From positions 1-37,163 of the IMG/VR virus record IMGVR_UViG_3300032053_005429: DNA of 37,163 bases. One strand, 5' to 3'. A program made the position numbers and the translations under genes. Source of the DNA: a virus. The first letter of the stretch is position 1. Each line of letters opens with the position of its first letter. Below, in pieces: positions 3,792 through 35,237 of the stretch. The notes under the pieces are model-generated. The model was not told where the DNA came from and did no database searches. It saw only the letters and a list, made by a program, of their open reading frames with translations.

Positions 3792-6284
3792 ATGGCTAAC
3801 ACAACTTCATCCCAAGGCCAGCTCCAACGAGCCGGCATCCGTGTTGCGCCGATGCAGCGGAAGCGTTCTCGAGAGATGGGTGTCAAGGGAATGAAGTGGG
3901 GTGTCACAAGGTCAGGTAGAGAGATACCACAAGGCGCGCACGATCCACACTACCAAACTCCCCCTGGCGAGTACAGCATAGTTAAGAACTTCCCAGGATG
4001 GTCAGACAAAGACCATGAAGATGCGGCACGCCATCTTCGTGCCATAGGCAAGACCAAGAGTGCTGAGCCTGATCGCTATAGCAACCTGCCTTCCCCCCGG
4101 TCAGAGTTCACAGCCCTCGCTAGAATGCACAAGGACGCTGCGCAAGAGATCCTCAAGGGCAAAACAACAGAATCTGTCAAGCGCCACCGGCTCCACGAAT
4201 GCCGTCTACGTGAGATGAGCAGCCGTGCCTTCTTGGAGCCAGGAGCCGACGAGCAGGATGCCAAGCAGCCCAAGAAGAAGAGCCGTGTCTACCTCGTAAC
4301 CATCATCGAGGAGGGTCTTGGCAACAGCAAGGACAAGAACTACTACTCCGGTGATGCGCTGAAAGGTGCTGTCAAGCTGTTCGACGGTGCCAAGGCTTTC
4401 TGCGATCACCCTGACGCCATATCCGAGAAGACACTGCCAGAGCGCAGCATGAAAGACCTGGTCGGCTGGTACACGGATTGCTACGTGGATACCAGACCGG
4501 ATACAGGCAAGGCCCGGCTCCGTGGCAAGCTGCACTTCTTTCCAACGGCAAGCTGGCTGACCGGCATGATTGATACCATCCTTACTGACCCTTCCAGTAA
4601 GGACATGTTTGGTATCAGCATCAACGCAGTGGGCAAGACTCGCCCGGCCGAAATGAACGGTGAGGTAGTAAACCTGGTTGAGGAGTTCCAGCGTGTGGAT
4701 AGCGCCGACGTAGTCACTGAGCCAGCGGCACGCGGCAAGTTTGAGAAGATACTGGAATCCAAACGTGGCGCTCGTAAGGTAACTACATCCATGAAGGGTA
4801 AACGTGTCCGTGAGTCTGGCGCTCTTACCAGTGAGCAGATCAAAGAAGTTGCTGACGGGCTGACACGTGGCTATTTTTCTGAAGATCCCGACGAGATGAA
4901 GACGGCGATACACGAAGCAGCTACCAAGCTGTACTCAGCGTCTTCTATCTCTGGGAAAGGCCCAGGGCAGGTAAACGAAGAGAAGTATACTAACGCACCC
5001 GCACCGATAGCGGATGCTGGAGGAAAGGGAGACATGAACAAACTGAACAGAAAGCAGTTGCTCAAGGCATCGGGGCGATTTGGCAAGAAAAAGAAGGCGC
5101 TCCGGGCCGCAGCGGGCACAGGCCCCGACAACGAAACCCTCCCTGAGCCTTCTCCCGAAGACATCGAGCCCATCACTGAGGCCGATGTCGAGGATGAAGA
5201 GACTCAAGAATTAGGCGACTTCGACGACTTCGGCGATGCCAGCAAGAAGGTGAAGGCATCCAGGGGCAAGGCAGCCCGAATCAAGGCTGCCAAGCTCCGT
5301 AGAACGGTCGCAGAGTCGCTGGAAGACGAGGACGAGGATGAGGACGAACAGCTCGCTCCTCCAACAGACCCGCTCGGTCGGCCAGCAGCGTCTGCTGCCC
5401 TATCCTCCGCTGAAGAGGACGAGGACGAAGATGAGCAAGACGACCTGGGTGGCGGCGACGAAGAAATGGGCGGTGGTGAAGACCTCGGTGGCGGCGAGCC
5501 CGACGAAATGGGCGATGAAGACATGGAGCCCGAGGGCCTGGAAGCCGAAGCTGAAGCCGAGGAAGACGAAGACGAGGCCGAAGAGGACGATGAGGGTGAG
5601 GCGCTCGAGATGTGCAAGGCATCCGGCAAGAAGAGGAAGCTTCACGCTGCCCGGCGTCGTTCTCAGGAAGCCAGCGGCTTTTATGGCAAGGCCGGAGACG
5701 CCGCTCTTCCGTCTCACGCCATCGGTGACTACACCGATGACTTCAAGACACCGAGTCGCGACACTTCGACTTCGGGCGTCGGCAAATCCTACAAGCTGAA
5801 GACCTCCATCGCAGGTCAGAATAAGCTGGCGCGTGGAGTCGTGAAGGAAGCCAACCGGCGCATCGAGAAGCTGGAAGGTGAGCTCGTGCGTCTGCGCGAG
5901 TCAAACCGCAATCGCCAGCGCAAGATCGACCGCTACGTGGGCATGGTCGGCTTCCACAATACCAAGGTGGAAGCGCAGAAGCTGCTGCGTGAGGCAGTCA
6001 AGCGCGACCTGTTCCCTGTCGGGTATGCTCGCACGCTGGAGCCCAAGCTGTATGGGATGAAGCGTCGAGAACAGATCCAGGAAATCAAGTTACACGCTCG
6101 CTTGCTGGAGTCCGCCAGTGACAGCGTGGTCCACCGCTTCCGTGAGGCTGATGCCGATTCGGAAGGCGTGGAAGGTGCTCCAGGCAGAGGCACTGCTGTA
6201 TCCCAGTTCGGGACCAGTGGCGGACACTCTGACCTTGCCGAAGGTCTGGCAGCAGACGGCGTTCCGATGCGTCAGCGTCGGTAG
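3792..6284 (+). CDS. Prohead protease joined to acidic, coiled-coil scaffold-like region
   Basis: This 830-residue multidomain protein begins with a basic leader containing GVKGMKWGV (residues 30-38). Residues about 163-325 form a phage prohead protease domain: the pattern DHP (His206), the GIS serine (Ser276 in MFGISINAVG) and the closing segment VDSADVVTEPAARG (Asp306) match the Ser/His proteases that cut head proteins during maturation. About residues 500-610 are extremely acidic (runs of Glu/Asp with Gly), and residues about 678-720 form a heptad-rich coiled coil (RRIEKLEGELVRLRES). Protease plus internal scaffold in one polypeptide, upstream of the capsid gene, recalls the lambda C/Nu3 arrangement, although here no internal scaffold start was identified. 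The protease would release the scaffold by self-cleavage. The ATG follows the previous TAG by 3 bases. Confidence 0.75.
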   Translation: MANTTSSQGQLQRAGIRVAPMQRKRSREMGVKGMKWGVTRSGREIPQGAHDPHYQTPPGEYSIVKNFPGWSDKDHEDAARHLRAIGKTKSAEPDRYSNLPSPRSEFTALARMHKDAAQEILKGKTTESVKRHRLHECRLREMSSRAFLEPGADEQDAKQPKKKSRVYLVTIIEEGLGNSKDKNYYSGDALKGAVKLFDGAKAFCDHPDAISEKTLPERSMKDLVGWYTDCYVDTRPDTGKARLRGKLHFFPTASWLTGMIDTILTDPSSKDMFGISINAVGKTRPAEMNGEVVNLVEEFQRVDSADVVTEPAARGKFEKILESKRGARKVTTSMKGKRVRESGALTSEQIKEVADGLTRGYFSEDPDEMKTAIHEAATKLYSASSISGKGPGQVNEEKYTNAPAPIADAGGKGDMNKLNRKQLLKASGRFGKKKKALRAAAGTGPDNETLPEPSPEDIEPITEADVEDEETQELGDFDDFGDASKKVKASRGKAARIKAAKLRRTVAESLEDEDEDEDEQLAPPTDPLGRPAASAALSSAEEDEDEDEQDDLGGGDEEMGGGEDLGGGEPDEMGDEDMEPEGLEAEAEAEEDEDEAEEDDEGEALEMCKASGKKRKLHAARRRSQEASGFYGKAGDAALPSHAIGDYTDDFKTPSRDTSTSGVGKSYKLKTSIAGQNKLARGVVKEANRRIEKLEGELVRLRESNRNRQRKIDRYVGMVGFHNTKVEAQKLLREAVKRDLFPVGYARTLEPKLYGMKRREQIQEIKLHARLLESASDSVVHRFREADADSEGVEGAPGRGTAVSQFGTSGGHSDLAEGLAADGVPMRQRR

Positions 6285-6289
6285 CTCCC

Positions 6290-6303
6290 GTCTAAGGCTA
6301 GAC
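6290..6303 (+). other. Small hairpin between protease-scaffold and decoration gene
   Basis: GTCTA and TAGAC form a 5-bp stem with an AGGC tetraloop 5 bases after the stop of the protease gene, followed by AGTTTGG. It is too weak for a confident terminator; it could be a processing or attenuation site. Confidence 0.25.
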
Positions 6304-6347
6304 AGTTTGGCATGCGTAAATTGAGACACGGAAGGGGGTGATGGCTA

Positions 6348-6872
6348 GTGTCTGTATCACGCAACAACATCAAGGTCGAGGAACGCCGCATCAGCAACGT
6401 TCCTATCTCTGCCGTTGCAACCTGTAACCTCGGTGACATGGTCAAGTGGGATGACACGAACAAGGTAGTCACTCCCATGACCGACGCCGACGAAGGGTCC
6501 GAGGAGTCCGCATGGTACTTCTGCGGTGTAGTCCAGGACCAGCAGCCGATCGCCAGTCTGGGTGGGGCGTTGCCGTTGAACCGCACGAACATCGTAGACC
6601 GTGGTTTAGTCGAGTTCTATGCGGACGACAACGCGACGTACTACCCCGGCGATTGGGTCTGCATCGGGTCCGACCCTCAGAAGGTCAAGAAGACCGGGGC
6701 CAGTGTCTGGAACGGTATTGGCATCGTTGCCATGGAGAACGGTTGGGCCGTCTCCGGTGGCGCTGCCGTGGGCAAGACGGCGGTGAAGGGGGTCACGAAA
6801 CTAATCATCGCTATCCGGCCGCAGTGGAGCCTGGGCAGCGAAAGCGGCTACCCGTTCGGTTTCTGGGACTAG
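6348..6872 (+). CDS. Putative capsid decoration/stabilisation protein
   Basis: This 174-residue protein is encoded directly between the protease-scaffold and the major capsid gene, the usual place of a head decoration protein (lambda gpD position). The GTG start at 6348 is supported by a strong AAGGGGGTGAT ribosome site; the ATG at 6341 is in another frame and soon stops. The sequence is beta-rich and globular (ISAVATCNLGDMVKWDD, GLVEFYADDNATYYPGDWV, GIGIVAMENGWAV), with repeated Gly-Asp turns of the type seen in SH3-like or jelly-roll decoration folds. It has no signal peptide. The assignment rests on position, size and fold character rather than a named motif, so a minor capsid protein is also possible. 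Confidence 0.5.
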   Translation: MSVSRNNIKVEERRISNVPISAVATCNLGDMVKWDDTNKVVTPMTDADEGSEESAWYFCGVVQDQQPIASLGGALPLNRTNIVDRGLVEFYADDNATYYPGDWVCIGSDPQKVKKTGASVWNGIGIVAMENGWAVSGGAAVGKTAVKGVTKLIIAIRPQWSLGSESGYPFGFWD

Positions 6873-6904
6873 TAGGCTAACTTTTCAGAGAGGAGATGCT
6901 TGAC

Positions 6905-7969
6905 ATGTTCCAAAACATCTGGGACAGAGCGGCGAAAAACATCGATTGGAATTCGCCCCGTTTGAGCTTCCGCCGCCTCCGGGAAGCTGCCTACCAGCAG
7001 TCCTCAAGGTTGCGAGAAGCAAATGCTGAGTCTGCATTCGGTCAGCTTCTGCGAGCTGGCATCCAGACTTATGCGTTGAATGCATACAACACCGTTCCTG
7101 TCGTATACCCTGACCTGGTCACGGAAGTGTCCAGCAAGCGTTACCAGGAATTCTACGCTCCGTTGTACCGGCCGAACCTGCCTAAGCTCGTTCAGCGAGG
7201 GCAGAAGTTCCAGGACAATCCGATCGCTGGCTTGGATCGGGTGCTAACGAACTTCAAGTTCGGCATGCTGGAGTCGTTCGAGCGCGAGCTCTTTGACGAC
7301 GACCAGACCGGCCAGATTAAGAACCGTGCCAGCCAGATGGGCGAGAACTTCAAGATCATGGAAGAAATCTACGTCATGGGCAAGATCATCGGTACCGGCC
7401 ACACTGTCCAAGGCGTAGAGGTTCCGCCCGACATCACCTTTAGCGACACCGTTCCCGTGGGAGCGACCGGGAATGGCACCTACAATACCGGCAAGGGCAA
7501 TCGCCCGGCGACCTTCGCCCGTCTCCAACAGACGACGCTGGAATCGGCCGACATCGCTCTGATGAACATCCAGGACCCGTTGGGCAACAAGTTCCTGGTC
7601 TCTCCGAACACGCTGCTGGTGTCCAGCACTGATAAGTTCGTCGCGGCCAAGCTGCTCAACTCTACCTTACAGCCTTCGGTCCCGAGTGCCACGGCGGGAT
7701 CTACCGGCTACGTCATGACCATCAACCCTCTACAGGGACTGTACAAGCTCTTAGTCTCCAGGTTCTTCACTTCAAAGGCATGGATACTTGGTGATCCGAA
7801 GAAGTGCTTAGTATTCCAGCGCCGTGACCCCCTGGAGATCGTTCAGGAGCACCCCGCTTCCGGCCAGTCGTTCGAGATTGAAGCTTACCGCTTCAAGTCT
7901 CGCTCGCGGCTGGAAGTTGGCATGATCGACTCGCGGTTCTTGTGGGAGGGCAACGACGGCAGTATCTAG
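6905..7969 (+). CDS. Major capsid protein
   Basis: This 354-residue protein is placed after the protease/scaffold and decoration genes and is followed by a strong terminator, as is typical for the most highly expressed phage gene. Features of HK97-fold or Mu gpT-like capsid proteins are visible: an N-terminal helical region (SPRLSFRRLREAAYQQS), a segment FERELFDDDQTGQI with following helix, the strand-turn NKFLVSPNTLLVSS, and a C-terminal beta region ending SRLEVGMIDSRFLWEGN. The ATG at 6905 is preferred over the one at 6896 because AGAGAGGAG ends at 6895, too close to the first but about 9 bases from the second. The upstream protease may trim the N-terminus, but no cleavage site can be read with confidence. 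Confidence 0.75.
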   Translation: MFQNIWDRAAKNIDWNSPRLSFRRLREAAYQQSSRLREANAESAFGQLLRAGIQTYALNAYNTVPVVYPDLVTEVSSKRYQEFYAPLYRPNLPKLVQRGQKFQDNPIAGLDRVLTNFKFGMLESFERELFDDDQTGQIKNRASQMGENFKIMEEIYVMGKIIGTGHTVQGVEVPPDITFSDTVPVGATGNGTYNTGKGNRPATFARLQQTTLESADIALMNIQDPLGNKFLVSPNTLLVSSTDKFVAAKLLNSTLQPSVPSATAGSTGYVMTINPLQGLYKLLVSRFFTSKAWILGDPKKCLVFQRRDPLEIVQEHPASGQSFEIEAYRFKSRSRLEVGMIDSRFLWEGNDGSI

Positions 7970-7990
7970 GCCAACGACCGACCCTGTGTG

Positions 7991-8033
7991 ACGTGGGGCA
8001 CCCAAACTTCTCGTGGTGCCCCACGTTCTATTT
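7991..8033 (+). terminator. Hairpin terminator after the major capsid gene
   Basis: A perfect 12-bp stem, ACGTGGGGCACC (7991-8002) with GGTGCCCCACGT (8015-8026), encloses a 12-base loop and is followed by TCTATTT. It begins 21 bases after the capsid stop codon and ends 26 bases before the next start, fitting a (possibly leaky) intrinsic terminator that raises capsid mRNA over downstream genes. Confidence 0.75.
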
Positions 8034-8051
8034 AGGCAAGGAGAATACCCC

Positions 8052-8765
8052 ATGGAAGCTGTTCGAGAGAGATTTGAGACCAGAGTTGTTACCGACGAGA
8101 AGGGAACTACTACCGAAGTTTCCGACCGTCGCGTCGGTAAACCAGAGACCTTCGAGTTTGGTGCTCCCGATGACGTTGTCACCCAGGTAGTCAAAGGTGG
8201 GTACATCAAGAATTGGAAGCCCGACTTCTTTTCCTCATTGCATGAGCATGGTGTGGTCGCCAGGTTCTACTATGACACCCGCATCGCCGTTGACATTGGG
8301 AACCCTGACAGCAAGTTGGCTCGTAAGAAACGACGGCTGCTCCACAAGAACGGCTTCGCATATTTCTGCATCTCACCAGGCTACCCCGAAGATGCTGGTC
8401 AGCTTCTGAAGTTGCTCCAAGCTGCCATTCAGGAGTACCGTGAATACGAGAAGGTGAACCCTCGTCCGATTGTGTACCAGGAAGGTATCATCATCGGCGA
8501 GGATGGCAACCCGAGGACGGCCAAAGTTCGTGCCATTGACATCGACGTTGGTGGCAAGGTCATTGGTAGCACGGAACTCCAGGCACAGGATCTCCTGCGC
8601 ACGTCACAGCCACTGTCTAAGGCTGACGCTGGGATGCTGCGTAGGAACGCGGCACTGTATGAGCATGTCCGAAAGTGCCTGACGGCTGGGCAGCCATTCC
8701 GGAATCCCTTCGTCGCTCGAAAGCGCAGGCAGTTCGATGTAGACTACGAAGCTGTGCCTGCCTGA
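8052..8765 (+). CDS. Hypothetical protein downstream of capsid
   Basis: This 237-residue soluble protein has no recognised domain. The ATG at 8052 has AAGGAGAATA about 5-8 bases upstream; an upstream in-frame GTG at 8013 lies inside the terminator hairpin and is rejected. The protein has a charged N-terminal third, a mid-region with strand-helix pattern (FAYFCISPGYPEDAGQLLKL) and a C-terminal helical part ending in a basic segment (ARKRRQFDVDYEAVP). Its place between the capsid terminator and the sugar-modification genes suggests a minor virion or assembly protein. The FISPGYP-type segment gives no secure homology. Confidence 0.5.
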   Translation: MEAVRERFETRVVTDEKGTTTEVSDRRVGKPETFEFGAPDDVVTQVVKGGYIKNWKPDFFSSLHEHGVVARFYYDTRIAVDIGNPDSKLARKKRRLLHKNGFAYFCISPGYPEDAGQLLKLLQAAIQEYREYEKVNPRPIVYQEGIIIGEDGNPRTAKVRAIDIDVGGKVIGSTELQAQDLLRTSQPLSKADAGMLRRNAALYEHVRKCLTAGQPFRNPFVARKRRQFDVDYEAVPA

Positions 8766-8886: not shown

Positions 8887-9600
8887 ATGGTAGACAGACC
8901 ATATGCCTTCTTAGAAGGCGCATCTCGTAGCTGCATATTCCGTGGTAACCTGACGCACGCTGCCAGACAGATACGCGAGTTGTATCCCATCGCTGCCTAC
9001 GACCATCGTCCTTGGATGAGCGACCACGAGGGCGACCTCGCCAAGCACGCAATGGAAGAGTACAGGCGTGGCTATGCCTGCTTCAAGTGGGCCGTCGCTC
9101 GGATTCTACAGCCTAAGACAATCCTGGAAATCGGTGTCGCTGGAGGGGTATCAGCCAGAGCCTTCTTGTCGGCGTGCCCGGATGCGTACTACCTTGGTTT
9201 AGACAACGAGCAAGAAGACGACGCCATAGGGTTCCGGCTAGTAGAGTGGACCCGGGAGATGCTGGCCGATTGTGGGTTCAAACGCTTCGACATCGTTTTA
9301 CAGGACAGTCGGGCACTATCACAATTGCCCAAAGCCAATCTCGGTATGAAAGACGCACCGTTCGATCTCATCCACATTGATGGCGACCACTGCTTTGAAG
9401 CGGCCAAACATGACATGCTCTTGGCCCTAGAATCTGGAGCACCCTGGATTCTGGCCGATGATGGCAGGAACTCTAAGACAATGGGTGGGATAATGAGTGC
9501 GCTATCGGAGTGGCATGAAGAACCCGAGGCTTTGGACTGGGCGTATTTCGAGGATACCTGGAGTGGCAGCATTCTCTTTGAAAGAGAGAAATCAAGATAG
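8887..9600 (+). CDS. Class I SAM-dependent methyltransferase (Methyltransf_24-like)
   Basis: This 237-residue enzyme has a Rossmann SAM-binding core. Motif I is LEIGVAGG (80-87), an acidic residue closes the second strand (GLDNE, D106), QDS (139-141) follows strand three, and FDLIHIDGDHCFEAA (159-173) with LADDG (189-193) is typical of the Methyltransf_24 family found in sugar, rhamnosyl-O- and antibiotic-type methyltransferases. The target cannot be read from sequence, but the two following genes are GT9 glycosyltransferases, so methylation of a sugar is the simplest reading. GGGGAG lies 8 bases before the ATG. The next gene starts 11 bases after the stop, so the three genes likely form one transcript. 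Confidence 0.75.
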   Translation: MVDRPYAFLEGASRSCIFRGNLTHAARQIRELYPIAAYDHRPWMSDHEGDLAKHAMEEYRRGYACFKWAVARILQPKTILEIGVAGGVSARAFLSACPDAYYLGLDNEQEDDAIGFRLVEWTREMLADCGFKRFDIVLQDSRALSQLPKANLGMKDAPFDLIHIDGDHCFEAAKHDMLLALESGAPWILADDGRNSKTMGGIMSALSEWHEEPEALDWAYFEDTWSGSILFEREKSR

Positions 9601-9610
9601 GGAGGCTTGT

Positions 9611-10561
9611 GTGAGATTTCTTCTTGCGCAGGGTATCGGGGACTGTCTTTGGGCTCTATTCAAGGTGCAAGATATTGCCAAGAAGATGGGTGATGGTAGA
9701 GTTGAACTGCACGTCGCCTGTACCCGCTTGGACTTGCTCCAGACTAGGGCCTTGGAATTCGTCAGGCGCTTCTCGTTCGTAGACTCTGCCCAGATGAAGA
9801 TATTCCCCTCTGTCTTGAAGCGCGGTGAACCTCCGGCGATAGCACAGGGGCGGTGGAACTACATCGATGACTGGACCGAGGTAGACGGCTGCCATGCTCT
9901 GATGCCCAATGCTCATATTGAGGAGGGCAAACGGCTAGAGACGTGGCTCCCAGGCTTCGAGATGGACTGGACGATCGCTGATCGGTATAGCTTCTACCAA
10001 GGTGAATTGTTGGTAGCCGACGAGCTTAGGAAGAGATGCAATGGTGATTACTGCATATTCTGTCTTGGGGCCATCTCTGGTAACATCTTCGACGGCCACA
10101 ATCGCGGGATGCTTTGGATGCCAGAGGACTGGGTCGCTCTGAGTAGGCGGCTGTGCCCGAAACACGTCCAGCGTATTGTAGTGGTCGGTGCGCCTTATGA
10201 CCTCAGCTATTGGGAGCATTTCGTAAAGCCTCTACTCTCAGAAGAGGAGAGCAAGCGGTGGATCTCCACCATCGGGGACTGGAACATCAGTACGACATTT
10301 GCTGTGGTCAGGAACGCCAGGTTCATCGTCTCGTTTCAGTGTGGCATCGGTATCTTCGGTAGCTACCTGAGAGTCCCAACGGCCATATTCTGGCGTCCCT
10401 ACGGCGACTCTATCTCATGCGAGTATAGGGTCACGTTTTCTGAGGACGAGGCATCAGCTTGGGTAGCGCCGTACATGCTACCAGATAAGCACTTGCCCTG
10501 CATCTACACGAAGCACTCCGCAGAGCAGATTGCTTGTGAAATCATAGCTAGGAGTTGGTGA
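9611..10561 (+). CDS. GT9 heptosyltransferase-like glycosyltransferase, divergent
   Basis: This 316-residue protein starts with FLLAQGIGDCLWALFKVQ, matching the GT9 N-terminal pattern (short strand, G-x-G-D, helix) of ADP-heptose:LPS heptosyltransferases. The C-terminal half has the second Rossmann region, RIVVVGAPYD, and a donor-site-like stretch NARFIVSFQCGIGIFGSYLR followed by VPTAIFWRPYGD, resembling the usual SxDxGxxHLAxALGxPxxxLFGP but with the His and key Asp replaced. Activity may therefore differ. The GTG at 9611 follows GGGAGG and matches the domain start; an in-frame ATG at 9497 lies deep inside the upstream gene. Its stop overlaps the start of the next gene (TGATG), showing translational coupling with a second GT9. 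Confidence 0.65.
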   Translation: MRFLLAQGIGDCLWALFKVQDIAKKMGDGRVELHVACTRLDLLQTRALEFVRRFSFVDSAQMKIFPSVLKRGEPPAIAQGRWNYIDDWTEVDGCHALMPNAHIEEGKRLETWLPGFEMDWTIADRYSFYQGELLVADELRKRCNGDYCIFCLGAISGNIFDGHNRGMLWMPEDWVALSRRLCPKHVQRIVVVGAPYDLSYWEHFVKPLLSEEESKRWISTIGDWNISTTFAVVRNARFIVSFQCGIGIFGSYLRVPTAIFWRPYGDSISCEYRVTFSEDEASAWVAPYMLPDKHLPCIYTKHSAEQIACEIIARSW

Positions 10562-11655
10562 TGAAGAAAGTCATCAATGCGATGGGCCAGGCTGTGAAAG
10601 TCATGGACTTCGCGGAGTTGCAGGCGCTACAGGGGTTTGTCCATAAGTATGAACGTGGCATGGACCTGTCTGACAAGCGCCTCGTGGTGAGACATACTTG
10701 GGGTATCGGTGATACTCTCTTTGCTACGCCTGTCGTCAAAGAACTGAAGCGGCTATACCCAACTTGCAAGATAGCATTTGCAAGCTCCTGGCCGGACGTC
10801 CTGAAACACAACCCAGATGTCGATGATATCCTGCCCGTCGGAGAGTTTAATGCTGGGGATTGGGTTCACAGGTTTGGTGGCCACATCTGGGTCTTAGATT
10901 TTAACTTGCCAGGTCTAAAGGACGGTAGGGTCAGTCCGAAGATCAGCGAGCATCTGCTAGAACTGCTCCGCCGTCAGCCAGCACAACTGAACAACCATGA
11001 GAGGGAATTCATAACTCGCTCTCGGAGCTTGTACACAGGCCGCTACAAGCAGATTGTGCTGGACGCCTACTGCGAGCGCGCAGGTGTGAACCCCGAGGTC
11101 AAGACCGTCTATTACTACCCAACCGACGAGGAGCTACAGCGCCTCCAAGGCTTCATATCTGGCTTCAGGAATGAAAATAGGAGAGTCATCGTTCTGTCTC
11201 CAAGTTCTAGTTCCTTGCTTAAGGACTACCCCTACTGGAATGACGTCATACGGCAGATTCCCATTACTACTACGTGGCTTCTCGTAGGAAACCCCCACGA
11301 CCGCTGGCCAAATCCGTCGAAACCAAATGTCATAGACCTCCGTGGAGCGTTGAAGCTACGTGAGTCGGCCGCGCTGACGCTCGTTACCGATCTCCTCTGT
11401 TGTAGCGATACTGGGCTTCTGTACGTCCGTGCCAGCAAGAACTTGCCTTGCATAGCCCTCTATGGCCCACACGAGCCCGAAGCCTTCCTGAAGTATTTCC
11501 CAAGCGTGCTGGGCTTGCGTAGTACGACCGTCTGCTCTGTGGGGTGTGGCGTAGATGCTGTCGCTTGTAGTGATAGCACGTCCGCTCCATGTATGACCGC
11601 GCTAAAGCCCGAGCTCGTAGCCGCCCACATCCTTCAGGTGCTAGACCTAAAGTAA
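10561..11655 (+). CDS. GT9 heptosyltransferase-like glycosyltransferase
   Basis: This 364-residue protein is a clearer GT9 member than its neighbour. After a 40-residue extension it reads VVRHTWGIGDTLFATPVVK with the GIGD loop at 48-51, then LYPTCKIAFASSWPDVLKHNP and VDDIL, all typical of the acceptor domain. The C-terminal domain has IDLRGALKLRESAALTLV, then DLLCCSDTGLLYVRASK and IALYGPHEPE, the standard donor-binding arrangement (SDTG, YGP) with Tyr where heptosyltransferases usually have His. The enzyme would move a sugar, possibly heptose-like, from a nucleotide donor. Known GT9 enzymes act on LPS core; in phages the target may be host envelope sugar or a virion protein. The ATG at 10561 has AGGAG 7-8 bases upstream. 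Confidence 0.75.
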   Translation: MKKVINAMGQAVKVMDFAELQALQGFVHKYERGMDLSDKRLVVRHTWGIGDTLFATPVVKELKRLYPTCKIAFASSWPDVLKHNPDVDDILPVGEFNAGDWVHRFGGHIWVLDFNLPGLKDGRVSPKISEHLLELLRRQPAQLNNHEREFITRSRSLYTGRYKQIVLDAYCERAGVNPEVKTVYYYPTDEELQRLQGFISGFRNENRRVIVLSPSSSSLLKDYPYWNDVIRQIPITTTWLLVGNPHDRWPNPSKPNVIDLRGALKLRESAALTLVTDLLCCSDTGLLYVRASKNLPCIALYGPHEPEAFLKYFPSVLGLRSTTVCSVGCGVDAVACSDSTSAPCMTALKPELVAAHILQVLDLK

Positions 11656-11681
11656 CTACACCTAGAAGGGGGATCCACTAC

Positions 11682-12296
11682 ATGTCTGGTTTCACAGCTA
11701 TTCTGCGCGGAGCAAAGTGTGAGCTGTCGGCCGTGTTGATCCGTGGTGACGGTACGCGGAAAGATCTGGGCGTAATCGCCAAGAGTTCGACTTGGTACAC
11801 AACCATACGAGGGTGGTTGCGGGGTCTTCTGCTATTGGCCTGCGTCGTAGCCTTCATCGATGGAGCAGTGCAAGGCGATCTACTCGGTTGGCTAATTGCA
11901 GCCGGGGGTTGCACGCTAGGCATTGTCACTACCGTAGGCGTGAACTACATGGCCAGTGACTTTGCATCGGGTGGCTCAACCCCGACCATCAGCGGCTTCA
12001 AGTTCCACGACTCTGGCGTCGGTACAGGTGGTGCAGTAATCGGGGATACCGCTCTTGGTTCCCCCGCCGGGTCAGCACGAGTCACGGGCACGCCGAGCAA
12101 CCCCAGCGCCAATATCTACAGGTCGGTGGCTGCTATTGCCTACACCACCACGTTAGCCATTACCGAGTGGGGATTGTTCTCGGCCTCCACAAGCGGGACG
12201 TTGTGGGATCGTCGCGTGTTCGCGGCCATCAACGTGGTGAACGGCGACAGCATTCAGTTCACCTACAACTTGACCGTTCCCAGTGGTGGTTCATAA
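11682..12296 (+). CDS. Virion structural protein with hydrophobic N-terminal segments
   Basis: This 204-residue protein has an N-terminal part with one or two membrane-like helices (LRGLLLLACVVAFIDGAVQ and LLGWLIAAGGCTLGIVTTVGV). The C-terminal domain, FKFHDSGVGTGGAVIGDTAL through ITEWGLFSASTSGTLWDRRVF, is a pattern I associate with recurrent phage structural proteins of unknown role (motif K/F-x-H-D-x-G-x-G). The ATG at 11682 has AGAAGGGGGA upstream; an in-frame upstream start at 11589 overlaps the GT9 gene. The two-part build suggests a membrane- or virion-embedded anchor joined to a small beta domain. It is the first gene of the run 11682-15139. Confidence 0.55.
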   Translation: MSGFTAILRGAKCELSAVLIRGDGTRKDLGVIAKSSTWYTTIRGWLRGLLLLACVVAFIDGAVQGDLLGWLIAAGGCTLGIVTTVGVNYMASDFASGGSTPTISGFKFHDSGVGTGGAVIGDTALGSPAGSARVTGTPSNPSANIYRSVAAIAYTTTLAITEWGLFSASTSGTLWDRRVFAAINVVNGDSIQFTYNLTVPSGGS

Positions 12297-12322: not shown

Positions 12323-13108
12323 ATGGCTATCTCAACGCTGGACGGGTACATTGCTGCTGTGAAGCAACGGTTGACCTGGTACAAAAGCGGCAGTCGGACC
12401 TCCGTTGCAGCATTGCCCACTACTGTGTTTGACCAGGCTGGCAATCCAGGAGCTGGGGCGTTGGCAATAGGCAATACGGCGGCCGGGATAGTGCCTGTCA
12501 GTACGGATGCCGGTTATCCCCTCATCCGTACCATCACCAACACTGGCTACCTCTCGCGGGTGGAGTTCAGCAGCCCGGTGGCCTGCCGTTTGATACTCTT
12601 CGACCGCCTCTTTGCGGCTGGGGCTTATGCCTACAATGCCGACACGACTCTGGCTTCGCAGCCTAGCTATGCGGGCCGGGTTCCCGGGGCGAACTACGCG
12701 GGTTTGGAGCTTTGGGTGGAGGCCGTTACGGCTTTCACTTTGGTACCGGCCTTCGAGATCAACTATCTGGACCAGGATGGTGCAGCCGGTGACACAGGCT
12801 CTATAGCCGCTCCTAATGCACTTATCCTGGGTCGGTGTTTCCAGTTGCCCCTAGCAGCCGGTGACAACGGGATACAGCAGATCACCAGGGTACGTTGCAT
12901 AACGGCTTCGGCCGGCACGTTCAACGTCATGGTCCTGCGTCGTCTATGGACCGGGCGGGTGACGATTGCCAACGCCAATGATGTCTATGATCTGCTGTGG
13001 ACCGGAATGCCACAGGTTTACTCGACTAGTGCGTTGTACGTTATGGTTGCGGCCGATAGCACGGCGACCAGTACTCCGGAGTGTGCGTTTGAGGTAGCCG
13101 ATGGCTAA
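12323..13108 (+). CDS. Putative virion structural protein
   Basis: This 261-residue protein is rich in Ala, Thr and Gly with many beta-prone stretches (RTITNTGYLSRVEFSS, RLILFDRLFAAGAY, GLELWVEAVTAFTLVPAF). It has no signal peptide or enzyme motif, and the overall look is of a virion surface or appendage protein. GAGGAGTGATTC directly precedes the ATG at 12323. The end overlaps the next gene by 8 bases, so the repeat protein is probably translated in step with this one. The family is not recognised with confidence. Confidence 0.5.
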   Translation: MAISTLDGYIAAVKQRLTWYKSGSRTSVAALPTTVFDQAGNPGAGALAIGNTAAGIVPVSTDAGYPLIRTITNTGYLSRVEFSSPVACRLILFDRLFAAGAYAYNADTTLASQPSYAGRVPGANYAGLELWVEAVTAFTLVPAFEINYLDQDGAAGDTGSIAAPNALILGRCFQLPLAAGDNGIQQITRVRCITASAGTFNVMVLRRLWTGRVTIANANDVYDLLWTGMPQVYSTSALYVMVAADSTATSTPECAFEVADG

Positions 13109-14807
13109 CATCTGGAGGAAACAGCCGAGCGGCAGGTTGCGTCACGGCAATCTTCTGAGGAGAGCACCGACTGACGCCTCGCAACTAATCGCTACGGGCT
13201 TTTTCGTTGGCCTATCTCAAGTTCTGACCAGTTCCATGTCAGCCTTCTCTGGGGTGGTGACCCGCTTCCCGCAGAAAGTATTTGCCGCCATGGTGTCCTC
13301 GCTTGCTGCCACACTTCTCAAGTTTACGACTAAGGCTGGTATGGCTGCTGGTATGAGCAGTTTTGTGGGCTTGGTCGTGCGCATTGGGCAGAAAACTCTG
13401 AGTGCAAGTACGATTGCATTCACGGGAGGCATTGCCAGAATTACCAGTAAGTCCCTACCATCATCTATATCAACGTTTGCCGCTACGGTTTCTATGTTGG
13501 TAAACAAGACGTTACCGGCCTCTTTAGGAGCATTCAGTGCTACAGTGGCTAGGAAACTCGCCAGAACGGTATCGGCTTCCATGAGTGCATTTGCCGGGGG
13601 GTTAGTAGGGGTTCATACCTTTGTTATTACCCTCGCCTCGTCAATGGCTACGTTCTCAGGTGCCGTAGTGAGGTTGACAGGGAGGAGCCTACAGTCGGCG
13701 ATGGCTGCCCTCACTGGGACAACAAGTCGGCAGGCTAATCGTGTTCTACCGGCTGCGCTGTCTACATTCTCAGGGCAGACTTTGAAGTGGACTGGGAAAG
13801 GGCTGACCGCCTCTGTATCCACTTTCTCAGCAACGATGTTTCGGTGGGTCAGCAAGAGCTTGGCGGCATCAATGGGCAGTTTCCTCGGTACAGCAGTTCG
13901 CAAGGCACAGAAGGTTCTGCCAGCCTCGATGCCCACTTTCTCAGCGACCACTTTTCGTGCGACCTGGAAGGCCCTGCCGTCCTCCATGTCCGCCTTCACT
14001 GCCAGTGTTTCCCGTGCTGCTGCCAAGACGTTTGGTGCAGGCATGGCCTCGTTCTCTGCTGTGGTTACACGGAGTGCTCGGAAGGTTGTCAGTGCTGGGA
14101 TGAGTTCGCTGTCTGCCACCATAGCCGCCGTTCTGGGTGGTGGGGCGCAGGTCTACGAGAAGGTATTCGATGCAGTGATGTCCTTCTCGGCCACAGTCAG
14201 TCGGAGTACCTCCCGGTCGGTGTCGTCCTCTATGTCCGCATTCAGCGGTACTCTTCTGCGATCCGCACGGAAGGTGACGGTATCTTCCATGAGTATGTTT
14301 GCTGGCCAGATTTCAAAGCAAGTTGGCAAGGTTCTATCAGCTTCCGTGGCCAACTTCTCAGCCGCCCTTTCTAGGTATGTAAAGAAGACCATCAGCGCAG
14401 TGCAGTCCGTCTTCGCGGCGCAACTGCGGAAACGGACTCTCCGTGTCATGAACTCCGAGATGTATCAGCACAGCGCCCAGATGGTGCGCATCGCACAGAA
14501 GACCGCATCGGCATACATGGGCTCTTTTGCTGGCTCTCTTGGGACTATGGCTGGCAAATGCTTTACGGCCACAATGAGCTTCTCTGCTGGCTTACTCAAG
14601 CACACCAGCCACAGCATCAATGCCACTCTCGTCCAGTTCTCTGCCGAGATTGCGCCTAGGAGAGTGATAGCCTGGGTGATTGACCAGTTGCATGTGATAC
14701 GACCGATGGTGGCAAGCCTTCTTGGCGTGCGCTCTGCCACGCTTGAAGTCAATGGCATTCTGACGAAAAGTTTTGTTGTTACCGCTTCTGGACTATTGGT
14801 GGAGTAA
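13101..14807 (+). CDS. Virion-region protein made of about 25 repeats of 19 residues
   Basis: This is a 568-residue protein. After a basic 39-residue leader, residues about 40-515 form a tandem array with consensus K-x-L-x-A-S-M-x-x-F-S-A-x-V-x-R. The central Phe (sometimes Leu or His) recurs at 49, 68, 88, 107, 126, 145, 164, 185, 204, 223, 242 and onward to 513; 20 of 24 intervals are exactly 19. Each unit offers two short alternating hydrophobic strands flanked by Lys/Arg, compatible with a beta-solenoid or fibrous rod. A unique C-terminal domain of about 50 residues (IAWVIDQLHVIRPMVASLLG) closes it. No enzyme motif is present. It is flanked by virion-type genes and overlaps the upstream gene by 8 bases. 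A fibre, tail or capsid-lattice component is inferred. Confidence 0.65.
   Translation: MANIWRKQPSGRLRHGNLLRRAPTDASQLIATGFFVGLSQVLTSSMSAFSGVVTRFPQKVFAAMVSSLAATLLKFTTKAGMAAGMSSFVGLVVRIGQKTLSASTIAFTGGIARITSKSLPSSISTFAATVSMLVNKTLPASLGAFSATVARKLARTVSASMSAFAGGLVGVHTFVITLASSMATFSGAVVRLTGRSLQSAMAALTGTTSRQANRVLPAALSTFSGQTLKWTGKGLTASVSTFSATMFRWVSKSLAASMGSFLGTAVRKAQKVLPASMPTFSATTFRATWKALPSSMSAFTASVSRAAAKTFGAGMASFSAVVTRSARKVVSAGMSSLSATIAAVLGGGAQVYEKVFDAVMSFSATVSRSTSRSVSSSMSAFSGTLLRSARKVTVSSMSMFAGQISKQVGKVLSASVANFSAALSRYVKKTISAVQSVFAAQLRKRTLRVMNSEMYQHSAQMVRIAQKTASAYMGSFAGSLGTMAGKCFTATMSFSAGLLKHTSHSINATLVQFSAEIAPRRVIAWVIDQLHVIRPMVASLLGVRSATLEVNGILTKSFVVTASGLLVE
13218..14646 (+). repeat. 57-bp protein-coding tandem repeat array
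   Basis: The array encodes the 19-residue repeats described for the surrounding gene. Units are clearly related as protein, but their bases and codons differ from unit to unit, so the array is old and kept by selection on the protein rather than recently expanded. Irregular spacings occur at four places (18, 20, 21 and 25 residues). Confidence 0.75.
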
Positions 14808-14812
14808 CCAAC

Positions 14813-15139
14813 ATGGCATTCCCCAGCAAAATCACGCTCTCACCGCTGAATAGCCAGATCGTAAAACTTTCTGGGCTTCAGAATAGCCTGACTGGCGTCT
14901 ACCTCAATAGTGCTGCTGTCATGGTTACTCTGGTTGATCGCAGCGGGAAGCCCGTCGCTGGTTGTACCAATCTGGCATTGATCTATGATGCTGGTTCAAA
15001 CGGCAACTACCAAGGCATGATTGACGCCAGTTTCAACCCTCCAGTCGGTGAAGGGTACACGCTCAGGGTCGTAGCTACACAGGATGGGAACACAGCGAAT
15101 TGGTCCATCGCCGCAGCGATTTCGCGGCGGACTTCTTAG
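14813..15139 (+). CDS. Small Ig-like virion protein
   Basis: This 108-residue protein starts 5 bases after the repeat-protein stop. Beta strands alternate with turns: VYLNSAAVMVTLVDRSGKPV, then NLALIYDAGSNGNYQGMI, then GEGYTLRVVATQDGN and TANWSIAAAISRR. This order (variable-argument strand, D-x-x-G-x-P-V turn, G-x-Y-x-L) resembles small Ig-like or carboxypeptidase-regulatory-like modules common in phage head-tail regions. It is probably a small virion component between the repeat protein and the connector genes. The exact role is unknown. Confidence 0.5.
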   Translation: MAFPSKITLSPLNSQIVKLSGLQNSLTGVYLNSAAVMVTLVDRSGKPVAGCTNLALIYDAGSNGNYQGMIDASFNPPVGEGYTLRVVATQDGNTANWSIAAAISRRTS

Positions 15140-15168: not shown

Positions 15169-15864
15169 ATGTCTGCCTGGAAGCAAGCTGACGTCATCCG
15201 TGCAGTCCGTATTGAGGTATCCGATGAAGTGGGTGGCAAGACACTGTTCCAGTATAGCCCCTTCATCGGTGAGCAGGACGGCGCAAACGCCATATTCCAG
15301 ATACCGCAGACGCGGATAGCTGAAGACACCCTCAAGGTCTACAGCGATGGCGTGCTGCTCACTCTGGGTGTAGACTACACCCTGGATGACCCGATGGTCG
15401 GGCAGCTGACTTTCGCAGCGCCTCCTCCTGTAGAAAACTCCCTGACGGCCACGTTGAGCTGGCTGTTCTTCTTGACCGCCGAGCTTGACAGGCACCTGAA
15501 CCGTGCAGCCAACGACCTGAACTACCCGACGTACCACACGGACGAAGCTACGGTTGCTGACTCAGAAGCAACGGCAGCAATCGCTGATATCCCAGATGGC
15601 CTGAAGACAGCCATCGTCATGTTGGGGGCGTACCATGCTTCCCATGCGTTGGCTCAGAGGTTTGCCAGCAAGTACGATGTGAGCGTTGGAGAGCAGGACT
15701 TCACCTTGTCGCAGCTTGCGGATCACTATGAGAAGCTCGCGTCGCAGCTATATGATAGGGGCATCAAGGCCAGAGACGAGTTCTACAAGGCCAGTGGTCA
15801 GCAGTATAGGGCGTCGGTGGCTGCACAGGGCTGGATGCTGCCACAGGTCACTCCGAAACGGTAA
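15169..15864 (+). CDS. Head-tail connector / head-completion protein
   Basis: This 231-residue protein has two parts. The N-terminal 100 residues are beta-rich with LKVYSDGVLLTLGVDYTLDD, a segment I associate with phage structural modules. The C-terminal half is helical (GLKTAIVMLGAYHASHALAQR, LADHYEKLASQLYDRGIKA), in the manner of gp6-type or gp15-type head-tail adaptors that bind under the portal. GGTAGGAGGCCCAA precedes the ATG at 15169. It is the first of a series of neck genes running to 18642. Adaptor function is inferred from the helical domain and the gene order. Confidence 0.55.
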   Translation: MSAWKQADVIRAVRIEVSDEVGGKTLFQYSPFIGEQDGANAIFQIPQTRIAEDTLKVYSDGVLLTLGVDYTLDDPMVGQLTFAAPPPVENSLTATLSWLFFLTAELDRHLNRAANDLNYPTYHTDEATVADSEATAAIADIPDGLKTAIVMLGAYHASHALAQRFASKYDVSVGEQDFTLSQLADHYEKLASQLYDRGIKARDEFYKASGQQYRASVAAQGWMLPQVTPKR

Positions 15865-19879: not shown

Positions 19880-20112
19880 TGGGGGAGAAGCCAAAGCCGA
19901 CGATGGTACGGTCCAAGCTGGATGAGGTTCGTAAGGCACTGTCTACGCTGCCGCAAGGCGAAGCGGCCGATGCAAGAAGCCAGCCTTACAGCTTGAAGGG
20001 CTTCCGTGGTGTCCATGTTGTAGACGACGCCAGGGGATTTCAGGAACTGGACGAGCGGTACAAGCAAGCGATAGCCGAGATGGAAGGAAACAGACGTGGG
20101 CGCTCCTCTTGA
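19274..20112 (+). CDS. Tail assembly chaperone, -1 frameshifted long form (GT-like)
   Basis: Coding is join(19274..19660, 19660..20112). After codon 129 (aac) a -1 slip on A AAA AAC takes the ribosome into a frame that stays open for 150 codons to TGA at 20110-20112, giving 279 residues. I checked every codon of the new frame between 19660 and 19879 and found no stop. The new frame encodes EYGFGPWQVGRLTLPQLTRY, the Tyr-Gly and R/D-x-L-T-x-x-x-L pattern of gpT-type extensions. A GTG at 19879 opens the same frame but is probably only an internal codon. The end overlaps the tape-measure start by 17 bases. In siphophages the GT form bridges the tape measure and the tube protein. Confidence 0.85.
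19642..19718 (+). promoter_or_regulatory. Programmed -1 ribosomal frameshift signal
   Basis: The slippery heptamer A AAA AAC is at 19654-19660, in correct phase (zero-frame codons cta aaa aac; -1 re-pairing on aaa aaa). An SD-like GGAGGAG lies at 19642-19648, 5 bases upstream. A 9-bp perfect stem, GTCCAAGCG (19679-19687) with CGCTTGGAC (19710-19718), lies 18 bases downstream with a 22-base loop; that spacing is longer than usual, so its stimulatory role is uncertain. Confidence 0.8.
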
Positions 20113-23100
20113 CATCTTATCTGCCTTCTTCAACCTGGAGGTCCGGCAGGACCAGTTCGATAAGGGTCTGCAGCAGGCAGAGCGTAAGGCTGAAGATTCG
20201 ACGAAGGCAATCGCCGGTCACTTCAGCGCTATGTCCGTCGCTGTAGCCACGGCTATCGGTATTGGCGTCATAGAATCCCTCCGTAGAGCCGCTACTCATA
20301 CCATCCAAGCCGCTACTGAGATGCGTAAGCTCGGCGCTCAGATGGGCATGACTACCCAGCAGGCCGCCGAGTTTATGCAAGTCTTTGAGATGTTTGGCGT
20401 CAAGGGCCATTCCGCAGCACGTTCCATCATGATGCTGTCTTACCGGATGGAGCACTTGCAGCGTGCTATGGACCCGTTCGCTGACAAGGTCGGCCGTATG
20501 CTTGGGCCATTGAAGGACGCCCAAGGCCAGGCTCTCGGGACTGCTCAAGTGCTGGAGTTGATACGCCAGAAGGTGAACGCAGCAGGCTCGGCCATGGAGC
20601 AGCTGAACATAGTACAAACTATATTCAGCCGCCGTCTCGCTGGGGAGATGCTACCTGTACTGAAAGCATCTAGAGAGGAGTGGGATAAATACATAGCAGG
20701 GGCTAGAGAGACAGGCGAGATCGTGACCGAGGAGCAAGAACTTATGGCTCGCAAGGTCATGATAGCAAGGCGCGAGATCGAACAGTCATTCAGCGCTCTC
20801 CAACTGCAAGTGGGTCAGCATCTTCTACCGTCGATGTTGGCGGCTGCTAGGGCCATAGGGGAGGTTGTTGAAGGGGTGGCCAAGTTCGCCAAGTCCCATC
20901 CTGACTTCACCAAGATGGTAGCTCTCATCGGTGGGCTGGTGATGCCGCTCACTGTTGTTTCCGGTCTGGCCCTCGTAGCATCACGTGGCATAGCATTCTT
21001 CAGTACTGCAATCCGCGTCCTCGGGGGCGATGCTGCTCTGCTACACGGCGCTCTTAGCAGAGTAAGCGCGATACTTGGGATGGTCACAGGTGGGGAGAGT
21101 GCTGCGGCTGCTGCCACTCAAGCTCATACGGCTGCTATGAACGAAGAGACTGCGGCTGCTGTGATGAACACTGCTGCACAAAGAGCTAGAGCAGCAGCAG
21201 CGGGTGTGGGGGCAGCAGCTTCTGGGGCTGGTGCAGCAGCCGGGACAGGAGCAGCGGCAGCCGGAGTCGGGGGCATAGCGCTCGTCAGCGGTATCCTTCT
21301 TCGCATTCTTGGCGCGGTCGGCTTGGCCGTGGCAGCAGCGGCAGGCACGTATTACCTGATGAAGTGGTTGGCCCCCTCCTGGGTTGAGTACGCTCAGAAT
21401 TGGTGGAGGGGTGAGAAGCACGCGGGCCAGGCCAGCAAGGAGGAAATAGAACGAGCCAAGACTGTGACTATCGGAGTTGGGGCAAAGCGCGAAGAGGACC
21501 TTCGCCTGGAGCTCAAGGCTGTCCAAGACTATTACAAGGCCGTCAAGGAAGCAGAGCAACTGGGGCTGGCAGGCACACGTGAAAGAAGGGAAGCAGTAGC
21601 ACAGGAAAGGGAAGTCCTTGCCCAGCGCCGCCGTCAGATCGAAGAAGACGAACTACCCAAGCTGGAAGGCACTCAGCGTATAGCGTCCGAAGCCAAGCTG
21701 CTACAGATCCGTATTCAGGATGCAAAGCTGGTAGCCGCTGAAGCAATGGAGGGCTACAAGCAAGAGGAACTCGCACTCAAAGCCATAGGCGCTCTTACCA
21801 TGGAGCGTGAGATGGATATTCTACAAAGGAAGCTGGCTGACGAGCGCATTGTTGGGGAGCAGAGGCTGAAGTTGGAAGCCGAGCTGTTCTCCAAGCGTCA
21901 GAAGTACGCTGAGGAGATGGTGAAGTCGGCCAGAACGATGGGCGTCATCGGTGCTGGGGAAGAGATAGGATTCAGGACAAACAAGGCACGAGAAGCCTTG
22001 GCAAGAGGTGACGTCAATGCAGCGGTTCAGGATCTCTCCAAAGCGAGAGAACTAGCCAAGCAGCAGGTGGACTCTGTCCTGGACTATGCTAAGAAGCTGA
22101 GGGTAGTTGGCCTTGCCGAGGAAATAGACTTCCAGAAGGCAAAGCTGGACATCATCAGGGGCAACGCCGAGGAAGAGAGAAAGATCATCGGCTCCATCGC
22201 CGACCTTGAGAAGCAACTGTATTCCGAACGCCTGAGCGCTGGCCTCAGCTACGTGAAGAGCATGGACCAGATGTACAAGAAGATGGAAGAGTCGGGCAAG
22301 GGCGGCGGAGAGGATATGTCCTTCGAGAGGGCTAGAGAGGAAGCAGGCCGGAGCCGCATAGAGATATTCCGTGCCGCTTCTGAGTTTGGCCTCGGGGGAG
22401 GCACAGCCCAGCAGAGGGACTTCGCGGTTGAGGTTGCTCAGTACGTGATGAAGGAGCTCCAGGACAGAGCTAAGACAGGCTTGCCAGTAGAACAGGATAT
22501 GAGAGAGTTCTGGATGTCTGCTGGTAGGGAGATACTGTCTAGAGCTTCCGGACGCCCCATTGGAGAGATCCCAGTGTCTCCTGGCACAGCCGGTCCTATA
22601 GCTGGCTCGCTGACTTCTCCTGCTGAGGGCTTTCTCAATGCTGGGTTAGCCAGGAGCACTGAGGTTCCCAGGCTGGACACGTCCTTCGTTGACGTGCAGA
22701 TCCGTCTTAGGGATGTTCTACAATCAGTGATCCCCAACATCATGAACTTTGGCAATGCGATAGCGGCCACGACCGCAAGGATGGGCGGGGTGGCTGCATT
22801 TCCTCCGTCGCAAACGCAGTATGCCCTCCAGCCTCCAGGTTCCCAAGGATTGACGGCTCCGCCTGTCAATCTGGTGCCGTTGCCTGGGGGCGGAATGGCT
22901 ACTCAGCTATCCGCATCTGAATCTGCTGAATTGCACGGAAGGGCTGTGGCTAGGGCCATCCGAGATGTGTTTGCCGAGAAGAGTCAGCCGGAGCTAGACG
23001 CTGCCACGGCTCTGTTGAAGAGGATGCAATCTGGAGTAGATATCCTGGAAGGCGCTGGTAGGGTTATTCAGCAGGGGCAGAGGGTGATAGTGGAGTTACA

Positions 23101-23173
23101 CTATGATGACAGCACTGATAGGCTTTCCGCAAAGGTCGGAAAAAGCATAACTGAGGCTTTGAGGCAATACTAG
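20096..23173 (+). CDS. Tape measure protein
   Basis: This 1025-residue protein is the longest in the region, mostly helical, directly after the tail chaperones. The N-terminus is amphipathic (FNLEVRQDQFDKGLQQAERK), followed by a helical domain common to tape measures (EMRKLGAQMGMTTQQAAEFM). Hydrophobic segments lie around residues 275-310 (VALIGGLVMPLTVVSGLALV) and 395-430 (ILGAVGLAVAAAAGTYYLMK), flanking an Ala/Gly-rich tract. Long charged coiled-coil regions follow, and a looser C-terminus. At about 0.15 nm per residue the length predicts a tail near 150 nm. The GTG at 20096 has AAGGAA upstream and overlaps the chaperone end. No lytic domain is seen. Confidence 0.85.
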   Translation: MGAPLDILSAFFNLEVRQDQFDKGLQQAERKAEDSTKAIAGHFSAMSVAVATAIGIGVIESLRRAATHTIQAATEMRKLGAQMGMTTQQAAEFMQVFEMFGVKGHSAARSIMMLSYRMEHLQRAMDPFADKVGRMLGPLKDAQGQALGTAQVLELIRQKVNAAGSAMEQLNIVQTIFSRRLAGEMLPVLKASREEWDKYIAGARETGEIVTEEQELMARKVMIARREIEQSFSALQLQVGQHLLPSMLAAARAIGEVVEGVAKFAKSHPDFTKMVALIGGLVMPLTVVSGLALVASRGIAFFSTAIRVLGGDAALLHGALSRVSAILGMVTGGESAAAAATQAHTAAMNEETAAAVMNTAAQRARAAAAGVGAAASGAGAAAGTGAAAAGVGGIALVSGILLRILGAVGLAVAAAAGTYYLMKWLAPSWVEYAQNWWRGEKHAGQASKEEIERAKTVTIGVGAKREEDLRLELKAVQDYYKAVKEAEQLGLAGTRERREAVAQEREVLAQRRRQIEEDELPKLEGTQRIASEAKLLQIRIQDAKLVAAEAMEGYKQEELALKAIGALTMEREMDILQRKLADERIVGEQRLKLEAELFSKRQKYAEEMVKSARTMGVIGAGEEIGFRTNKAREALARGDVNAAVQDLSKARELAKQQVDSVLDYAKKLRVVGLAEEIDFQKAKLDIIRGNAEEERKIIGSIADLEKQLYSERLSAGLSYVKSMDQMYKKMEESGKGGGEDMSFERAREEAGRSRIEIFRAASEFGLGGGTAQQRDFAVEVAQYVMKELQDRAKTGLPVEQDMREFWMSAGREILSRASGRPIGEIPVSPGTAGPIAGSLTSPAEGFLNAGLARSTEVPRLDTSFVDVQIRLRDVLQSVIPNIMNFGNAIAATTARMGGVAAFPPSQTQYALQPPGSQGLTAPPVNLVPLPGGGMATQLSASESAELHGRAVARAIRDVFAEKSQPELDAATALLKRMQSGVDILEGAGRVIQQGQRVIVELHYDDSTDRLSAKVGKSITEALRQY

Positions 23174-24177: not shown

Positions 24178-24560
24178 TGTGGGTAGCAAACTTTGCCGAT
24201 GGTGGGTCCATGAGCGCGAAGCAATGCGACTGGACAGACTTGCCTCAGGATAGACCTATATCCGGAGTCCAGCTTGTACACTCCCTGTCCCGCCTGTTCA
24301 TCAGCCTTCAAGGGATGAAGTCGTACTACTACGTTCGTGAGGCAGTCGCGACTGCGGGCCAGAAGATGCCTACGATCATATCTGAGGCCGTCGGTGGCCT
24401 GGACCCAGAGTTGGGTATCGGTATCGAGTTGCGCTTGGACTTGATTGGTAGCGCGGTAGCCTGTCGGCACTTCAAGAGTGATCGGTTCAAGTACGACAAG
24501 GGCATACTGAGGCTGGGGAAGAACGGACAGGCAGCAGATGAGCGTAGACAAAGCACATAG
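24177..24560 (+). CDS. Hypothetical tail-region protein
   Basis: This 127-residue protein starts by TGATG overlap with the previous gene. It opens with MWVANFADGGSMSAKQCDW and has DLPQDRPISGVQLVHSL; this W-x-A-x-F-x-D-G-x-x-x-x-x-x-x-W-x-D-x-P arrangement is one I associate with a recurrent small phage protein of unknown function found near tail-tip genes. Residues 45-60 give aromatic-rich MKSYYYVREAV. There is no membrane segment and no enzymatic signature. The last 23 bases overlap the next gene in another frame. Confidence 0.5.
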   Translation: MWVANFADGGSMSAKQCDWTDLPQDRPISGVQLVHSLSRLFISLQGMKSYYYVREAVATAGQKMPTIISEAVGGLDPELGIGIELRLDLIGSAVACRHFKSDRFKYDKGILRLGKNGQAADERRQST

Positions 24561-29751: not shown

Positions 29752-29809
29752 GCCAAATCCACAAGCTCAGAAATGCTCAAGGTGACGTTTCATTGTATTG
29801 GAGGCAAAT

Positions 29810-32918: not shown

Positions 32919-32956
32919 TATTGCAAGTAGTCGAAAGCTCGGCGTCGGAGATTTTG

Positions 32957-35233: not shown

Positions 35234-35237
35234 GTTG

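Follow-up and report, generated by a model that had tools for sequence, protein, structure and literature searches.

A 19-residue repeat protein and its linked partner as a candidate virion appendage shaft and anchor in uncultured tailed phages

What might a protein made almost entirely of short, regular repeats be doing among the virion genes of a phage? The question is raised by a 37,163-base virus fragment (IMG/VR record IMGVR_UViG_3300032053_005429; the whole stretch is referred to here as the window), in which the gene at 13101–14807, on the plus strand, encodes a protein of 568 amino acids with homologues detected by phmmer. The gene lies in the structural block, between the major capsid protein (MCP) and the connector; the initial annotation, which placed it among virion genes, had proposed a fiber, a decoration lattice or a DNA-facing layer as its role. 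The reading that we regard as rather probable is that its product forms an appendage shaft on the virion, held in place via a partner protein; we infer its presence in the virion, its fiber function, its anchoring and its site of attachment.

The repeat array extends from 13218 to 14666 on the plus strand, and PSSM segmentation divides it into 22 strong units, starting at residue 40 (base 13218), and three degenerate ones, that is, the 25 units of 19 residues initially reported; the proposed start was exact, and the units run to residue 522 (about base 14666), slightly beyond the proposed end at 14646. Identity of the protein with itself reaches 26.5% at lag 19, 22% at lag 38 and 23% at lag 57, whereas no lag exceeded 16.4% in any of 1000 shuffled versions. 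The intervals between unit centers, read by hand from the unit listing, are exactly 19 in 20 of 24 cases, as had been stated, the remaining four being 20, 21, 25 and 18, with the 21-residue spacing at residues 155–176 and the 25-residue spacing at 328–353; at the center, 21 of the 25 units have Phe, three Leu and one His, and the proposed consensus, K-x-L-x-A-S-M-x-x-F-S-A-x-V-x-R, was correct. The divergence of the units at the DNA level was also confirmed: Tandem Repeats Finder reported nothing over the gene, and the units share on average 42% identity in pairwise DNA comparisons and 28% in protein comparisons, which indicates that the array is old and has been kept at the protein level. Outside the repeats lie an N-terminal segment of 39 residues (13101–13217, plus strand), with WRKQP at residues 5–9 and proposed as an anchor peptide, and a C-terminal tail of 46 residues (14667–14804, plus strand) with no known domain and low model confidence. 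The scored units contain 48 K+R versus 3 D+E. Only one 19-residue hydropathy window exceeds 1.6 and is membrane-like, which argues against a membrane protein, one of the outcomes that the initial annotation had set against its own reading.

Homologues were sought in IMG/VR with degenerate DNA patterns for tandem units, those of three tandem units among them, and then with HMMs. With the window protein as query, phmmer recovered ten ORFs in nine other phage loci (E 5e-99 to 3e-4), and 20 shuffled queries recovered none. Altogether, 250 units were scored, in about 17 distinct proteins of uncultured, mostly unrelated tailed phages, and the comparison of repeat number in relatives suggested at the outset reveals a variable count, from 1 to 34 scored units per protein. 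The unit signature is K1-L3-A5-S6-M7-F10-G/A12-L14-K/R16, found in tandem in the window protein as well, with positions 1 and 16 rich in K/R/H, position 12 occupied by G (60%) or A (37%), no conserved Pro, and D/E nearly absent in most members (75 K+R versus 1 D+E in the scored units of homologue L150). Across the family, 174 intervals measure 19 residues and 29 measure 21; the longer ones often return at every third or fourth unit in homologues, such as L155, and may reflect a structural register. Other modules accompany the repeat: an LVIVD propeller lies inside the array of L150, the C-terminus of L153 has a weak carboxypeptidase-regulatory-like (CarboxypepD_reg) match, five members (L154, L155, L156, L170 and L174) have N-terminal regions judged by eye to be jelly-roll-like, and LamG and jelly-roll-like genes are neighbors at some loci.

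The stretches L022, L030, L034–L038, L040, L041, L043 and L124–L126 matched the pattern and were rejected as homologues. A pattern scan of genome contigs returned 80 stretches with no homologue among them, searches for the repeat in bacteria of two phyla (396 and 398 genomes) found none, and nothing was found by tblastn with the repeat proteins and the window partner against 50,697 phage records, or with one repeat against plasmids; the tblastn result is weak evidence of absence, because the BLAST low-complexity filter may hide repeats rich in S, A and T. Pfam, NCBIfam and PDB sequences gave no match covering the repeat. A PHROGs family of 40 positions with no function given, phrog_36274, matches the repeat of L150 (6e-11), and the unit has therefore probably been met before in phage proteins; the window protein itself does not match it at E 0.1. 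The earlier remark that no characterized example exists holds for the libraries searched, and the 19-residue unit and its linked partner appear to be undescribed in the material searched, short-repeat phage appendages as such being already known.

As regards the fold, the repeat likely forms a β rod, as judged from models of limited confidence. AlphaFold2, run on nine units with 13 alignment rows (self-shifted rows, which the aligner collapsed, were left out), gave two strands per unit at pLDDT 59.7 and pTM 0.55, and the full-length model reached pLDDT 49.8; AlphaFold readily builds solenoids from repeats. In VIA-align, 163–170 residues of the nine-unit model, whose pLDDT is about 60, superposed at 2.9 Å (Z 10.9–11.8) on two β-solenoids, the C-terminal domain of tapirin (4wa0) and the secretion domain of FHA (1rwr). 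Foldseek against the PDB and viral models returned no significant match, in lists that exclude nothing, nor did a PDB sequence search with the repeat, and in hydrophobic-moment analysis the second strand was not cleanly separated between β and α, so that this analysis is given no weight here. Of the regular β rod with basic edges anticipated by the initial annotation, the two strands per unit, the K/R at positions 1 and 16 and the scarcity of D/E are thus retained; the structure prediction that it called for is all β and solenoid-like, at a confidence too low, above all at full length, to establish the solenoid that it suggests. Given the β-solenoid rise of roughly 0.48 nm per coil, a rod of 25 units would be about 12 nm in length, and a triple spiral would exceed this.

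Such a triple β-spiral, or another intertwined trimeric shaft in place of a monomeric solenoid, is the best surviving alternative and a possible, though less likely, one; it would serve the same fiber role and overlaps with the preferred explanation. Adenovirus-type triple β-spiral shafts consist of short repeats folded as β strands, with the number of repeats setting the length and an N-terminal anchor, and the rod proposed here would share these features. The repeat length, the alternating hydrophobics and the Gly/Ala at position 12 are compatible with this arrangement, and a poor monomer model would be natural for a chain that has to trimerize in order to fold; nevertheless, the 19-residue unit has no strictly conserved Pro or Gly at a turn, and the monomer model aligns to β-solenoids over nearly its whole length. 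The adenovirus-type shaft model is also discussed in PMC12796354.

The case for an appendage shaft, whichever the fold, rests in part on a second gene. The protein encoded at 11589–12296 on the plus strand (W11; phrog_5417, E 2e-7) is the proposed fiber anchor, and homologues 42–68% identical to it lie at most five genes upstream of the repeat gene in L148, L149, L151, L153 and L154. In an independent scan of IMG/VR with the W11 family alignment, in which repeat ORFs were called by HMM, 24 loci were obtained, of which 16 have a repeat ORF on the same strand, from 9 bp to about 3.5 kb away; the window likewise has both genes on one strand within a few kb, and the repeat HMM matched none of 4882 background ORFs. 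Where the contig offers enough flank, the repeat gene lies within about 3.5 kb in 16 of 17 cases. In six loci without the repeat, the sequence ends no more than about 2.3 kb past the partner gene; L169, read over 7.4 kb, clearly lacks the repeat. L160, with W11 and no repeat in the locus, shares a contig with L024, which does bear the repeat and lies toward the opposite end; should that contig be circular, the arrangement would be the same here too. Among 13 further loci listed with both genes, the partner is upstream in 12 and the order is reversed in L176, the weakest of the 16 repeat-bearing loci. Distant W11 homologues also occur in annotated phages (HMM E 6e-16 to 2e-9), and in four of six annotated records the homologue, or genes that then follow, are named 'tail fiber', 'tail collar fiber' or 'putative collar', labels that are annotators' guesses; the 19-residue repeat was found in none of these stretches. 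The C-terminal region of W11 aligns weakly with PF23140 Gp80, the fiber I protein of podophage GP4 (best E 0.016, two of six members), the W11 of the window falling below the curated gathering cut-off (14.4 versus 27 bits).

In a genome of the phylum of an Acidobacteria bin (L187; reverse complement, 5001–6656 and 7278–8054), a W11 homologue (8e-27) lies beside a protein with a period of 18 residues, whose repeat resembles LxGSxTxxGxL and whose lag-18 identity is 17.9% versus a shuffle maximum of 14.7%. This protein does not match the 19-residue HMM, so that kinship of the two repeats is unsupported; the locus may hint at a cellular host of a W11-type cassette.

The surroundings of the two genes describe an accessory cassette. 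In the window, a head protease-like protein (3792–6284) and the MCP (6896–7969, plus strand; PF10124 2e-12, PF25209 1e-9) are followed by sugar-/methyl-transferase-like genes, W11, an unassigned gene (12323–13108, plus strand), the repeat gene, a small gene (14813–15139, plus strand) and a probable head–tail connector (15169–15864, plus strand), with the tape measure protein further on (20096–23173, plus strand; phrog_167 3e-8). The unassigned product has no family match and no match in the four MCP relatives, and its gene is probably part of the cassette; the small product has a weak Invasin_D3 match (E 0.04) and is 33–35% identical to the protein encoded just behind the repeat gene in L151/L164 and L161. 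The four closest IMG/VR phages, with capsid proteins 74–82% identical, keep the transferase genes, the connector (36–40% identical in all four, a conserved border of the cassette, with a BLASTP match of 2e-6 to the gene that follows the repeat gene of L148) and the downstream genes, and lack the repeat gene and its partner, with other small ORFs or nothing in their place; the cassette is therefore accessory. It lies between MCP and connector in the window and L148/L163; in L151/L164 it is flanked by the tail tube and tape measure genes.

This mobility bears on the remaining alternatives. As a reservation on the appendage reading itself, genes near a capsid gene may be non-structural. A capsid decoration layer, present in many copies outside the head, stabilizing it or making a sticky basic surface, with the repeat number tuned for coverage and not for reach, would suit the way in which the cassette directly follows the capsid genes in the window and L148, the strongly basic units and a weak 'head protein' profile match of W11 (E 0.035); it is nonetheless unlikely, as the L151 cassette sits with tail genes and the fused propeller and regulatory-like modules better suit a projecting fiber. 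The basic composition of the units in the window and in L150 would also agree with an internal protein that is bound to the packaged DNA or leaves the capsid together with it, but this reading is improbable in view of those same fusions, of the LamG and jelly-roll-like neighbor genes and of the fiber-labelled genes that the W11 family adjoins. Least probable of all, if only slightly, is a non-virion accessory protein, perhaps an adhesin that is secreted or a lysogenic-conversion factor, whose gene happens to sit in the structural block; this would be compatible with the absence from four close relatives, but no signal peptide was seen by eye and the cassette moves with its partner gene and sits among structural genes where the context is readable. 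Of the three roles initially proposed, the fiber is consequently the best supported on gene content, through the linkage to the anchor gene and the fused surface-type modules; the lattice is possible and the DNA-facing layer less likely.

In the appendage shaft that we favor, each 19-residue unit would form two short β strands joined by a tight turn, and stacking of the units would produce a rigid rod of strongly basic character, its length fixed by the repeat number. The short N-terminal segment would dock this rod to a virion anchor, probably the W11 protein, and jelly-roll, LamG, propeller or Ig-like modules, fused or neighboring, would be the binding ends. A motif compatible with a docking peptide, [FYW]R-x-[PQ] followed by P or F, lies a few residues behind a possible start codon in six of the ten repeat-type proteins that are intact (those of the window, L147, L148, L151, L161 and the 18-residue-repeat protein of L187, with some start codons chosen by us), and is not common to all repeat proteins; [FYW][RK]x[PQ][PFSV] within the first 16 residues was found in 6 of 1084 background ORFs, a background that includes some motif-carrier loci. 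The head fibers gp21 and gp29 of phi-crAss001 are docked by short N-terminal segments (residues 1–38 and 1–58) and project outward (PMC10172136), an arrangement similar to that proposed here. The phi29 head fibers are a supercoiled helix-turn-helix, according to a title cited in PMC12796354; the low-confidence model presents the repeat as all β. The proteins that constitute the 7-7-1 capsid fibers are unknown (PMC12796354). No sequence match to the repeat protein was found among the capsid or head fibers of phi-crAss001, phi29 and 7-7-1.

The gene set would be exchanged between phages as a cassette, placed in the head/neck block in some and with tail genes in others, and the attachment site may differ accordingly from phage to phage. 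A more tentative extension is a mobile two-component fiber system, in which a conserved anchor with a docking site for a short peptide could take interchangeable basic β-rod shafts, mounted by unrelated phages on head/neck or tail by moving one cassette. If right, these proposals would name a fiber-shaft family and an anchor missed by current libraries, provide a means to recognize accessory appendages in uncultured phages, offer a length-variable, highly regular basic rod, and allow one to ask whether a single appendage can ride head or tail.

Several minor features of the window and its relatives may be added. At the cassette spot, two relatives (L017 8853–9170; L015 11505–11819) have a different small protein with an HDNGDGTFS motif every ~33–35 residues. 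The sugar-/methyl-transferase-like genes (8887–11655 and L014–L017, with more in relatives) lie within the virion block after the capsid gene and possibly serve virion glycosylation. After the tape measure gene, a protein of 158 amino acids (24538–25014) has a second short repeat of ~14 residues, YxKLAAxL, and similar-looking stretches occur in larger proteins downstream of the tape measure in L020 (15610–17478) and L021 (14330–17155). Finally, an RFPR(L) motif, usually with basic neighbors, recurs in several different proteins of the window (29798–30313, with four copies, 32921–33649 and 35235–36116) and, with differing codons, in four relatives (L018–L021) at 4–6 copies per 19 kb, compared with 0–3 in ten other phage contigs; it looks like a protein-level docking tag.
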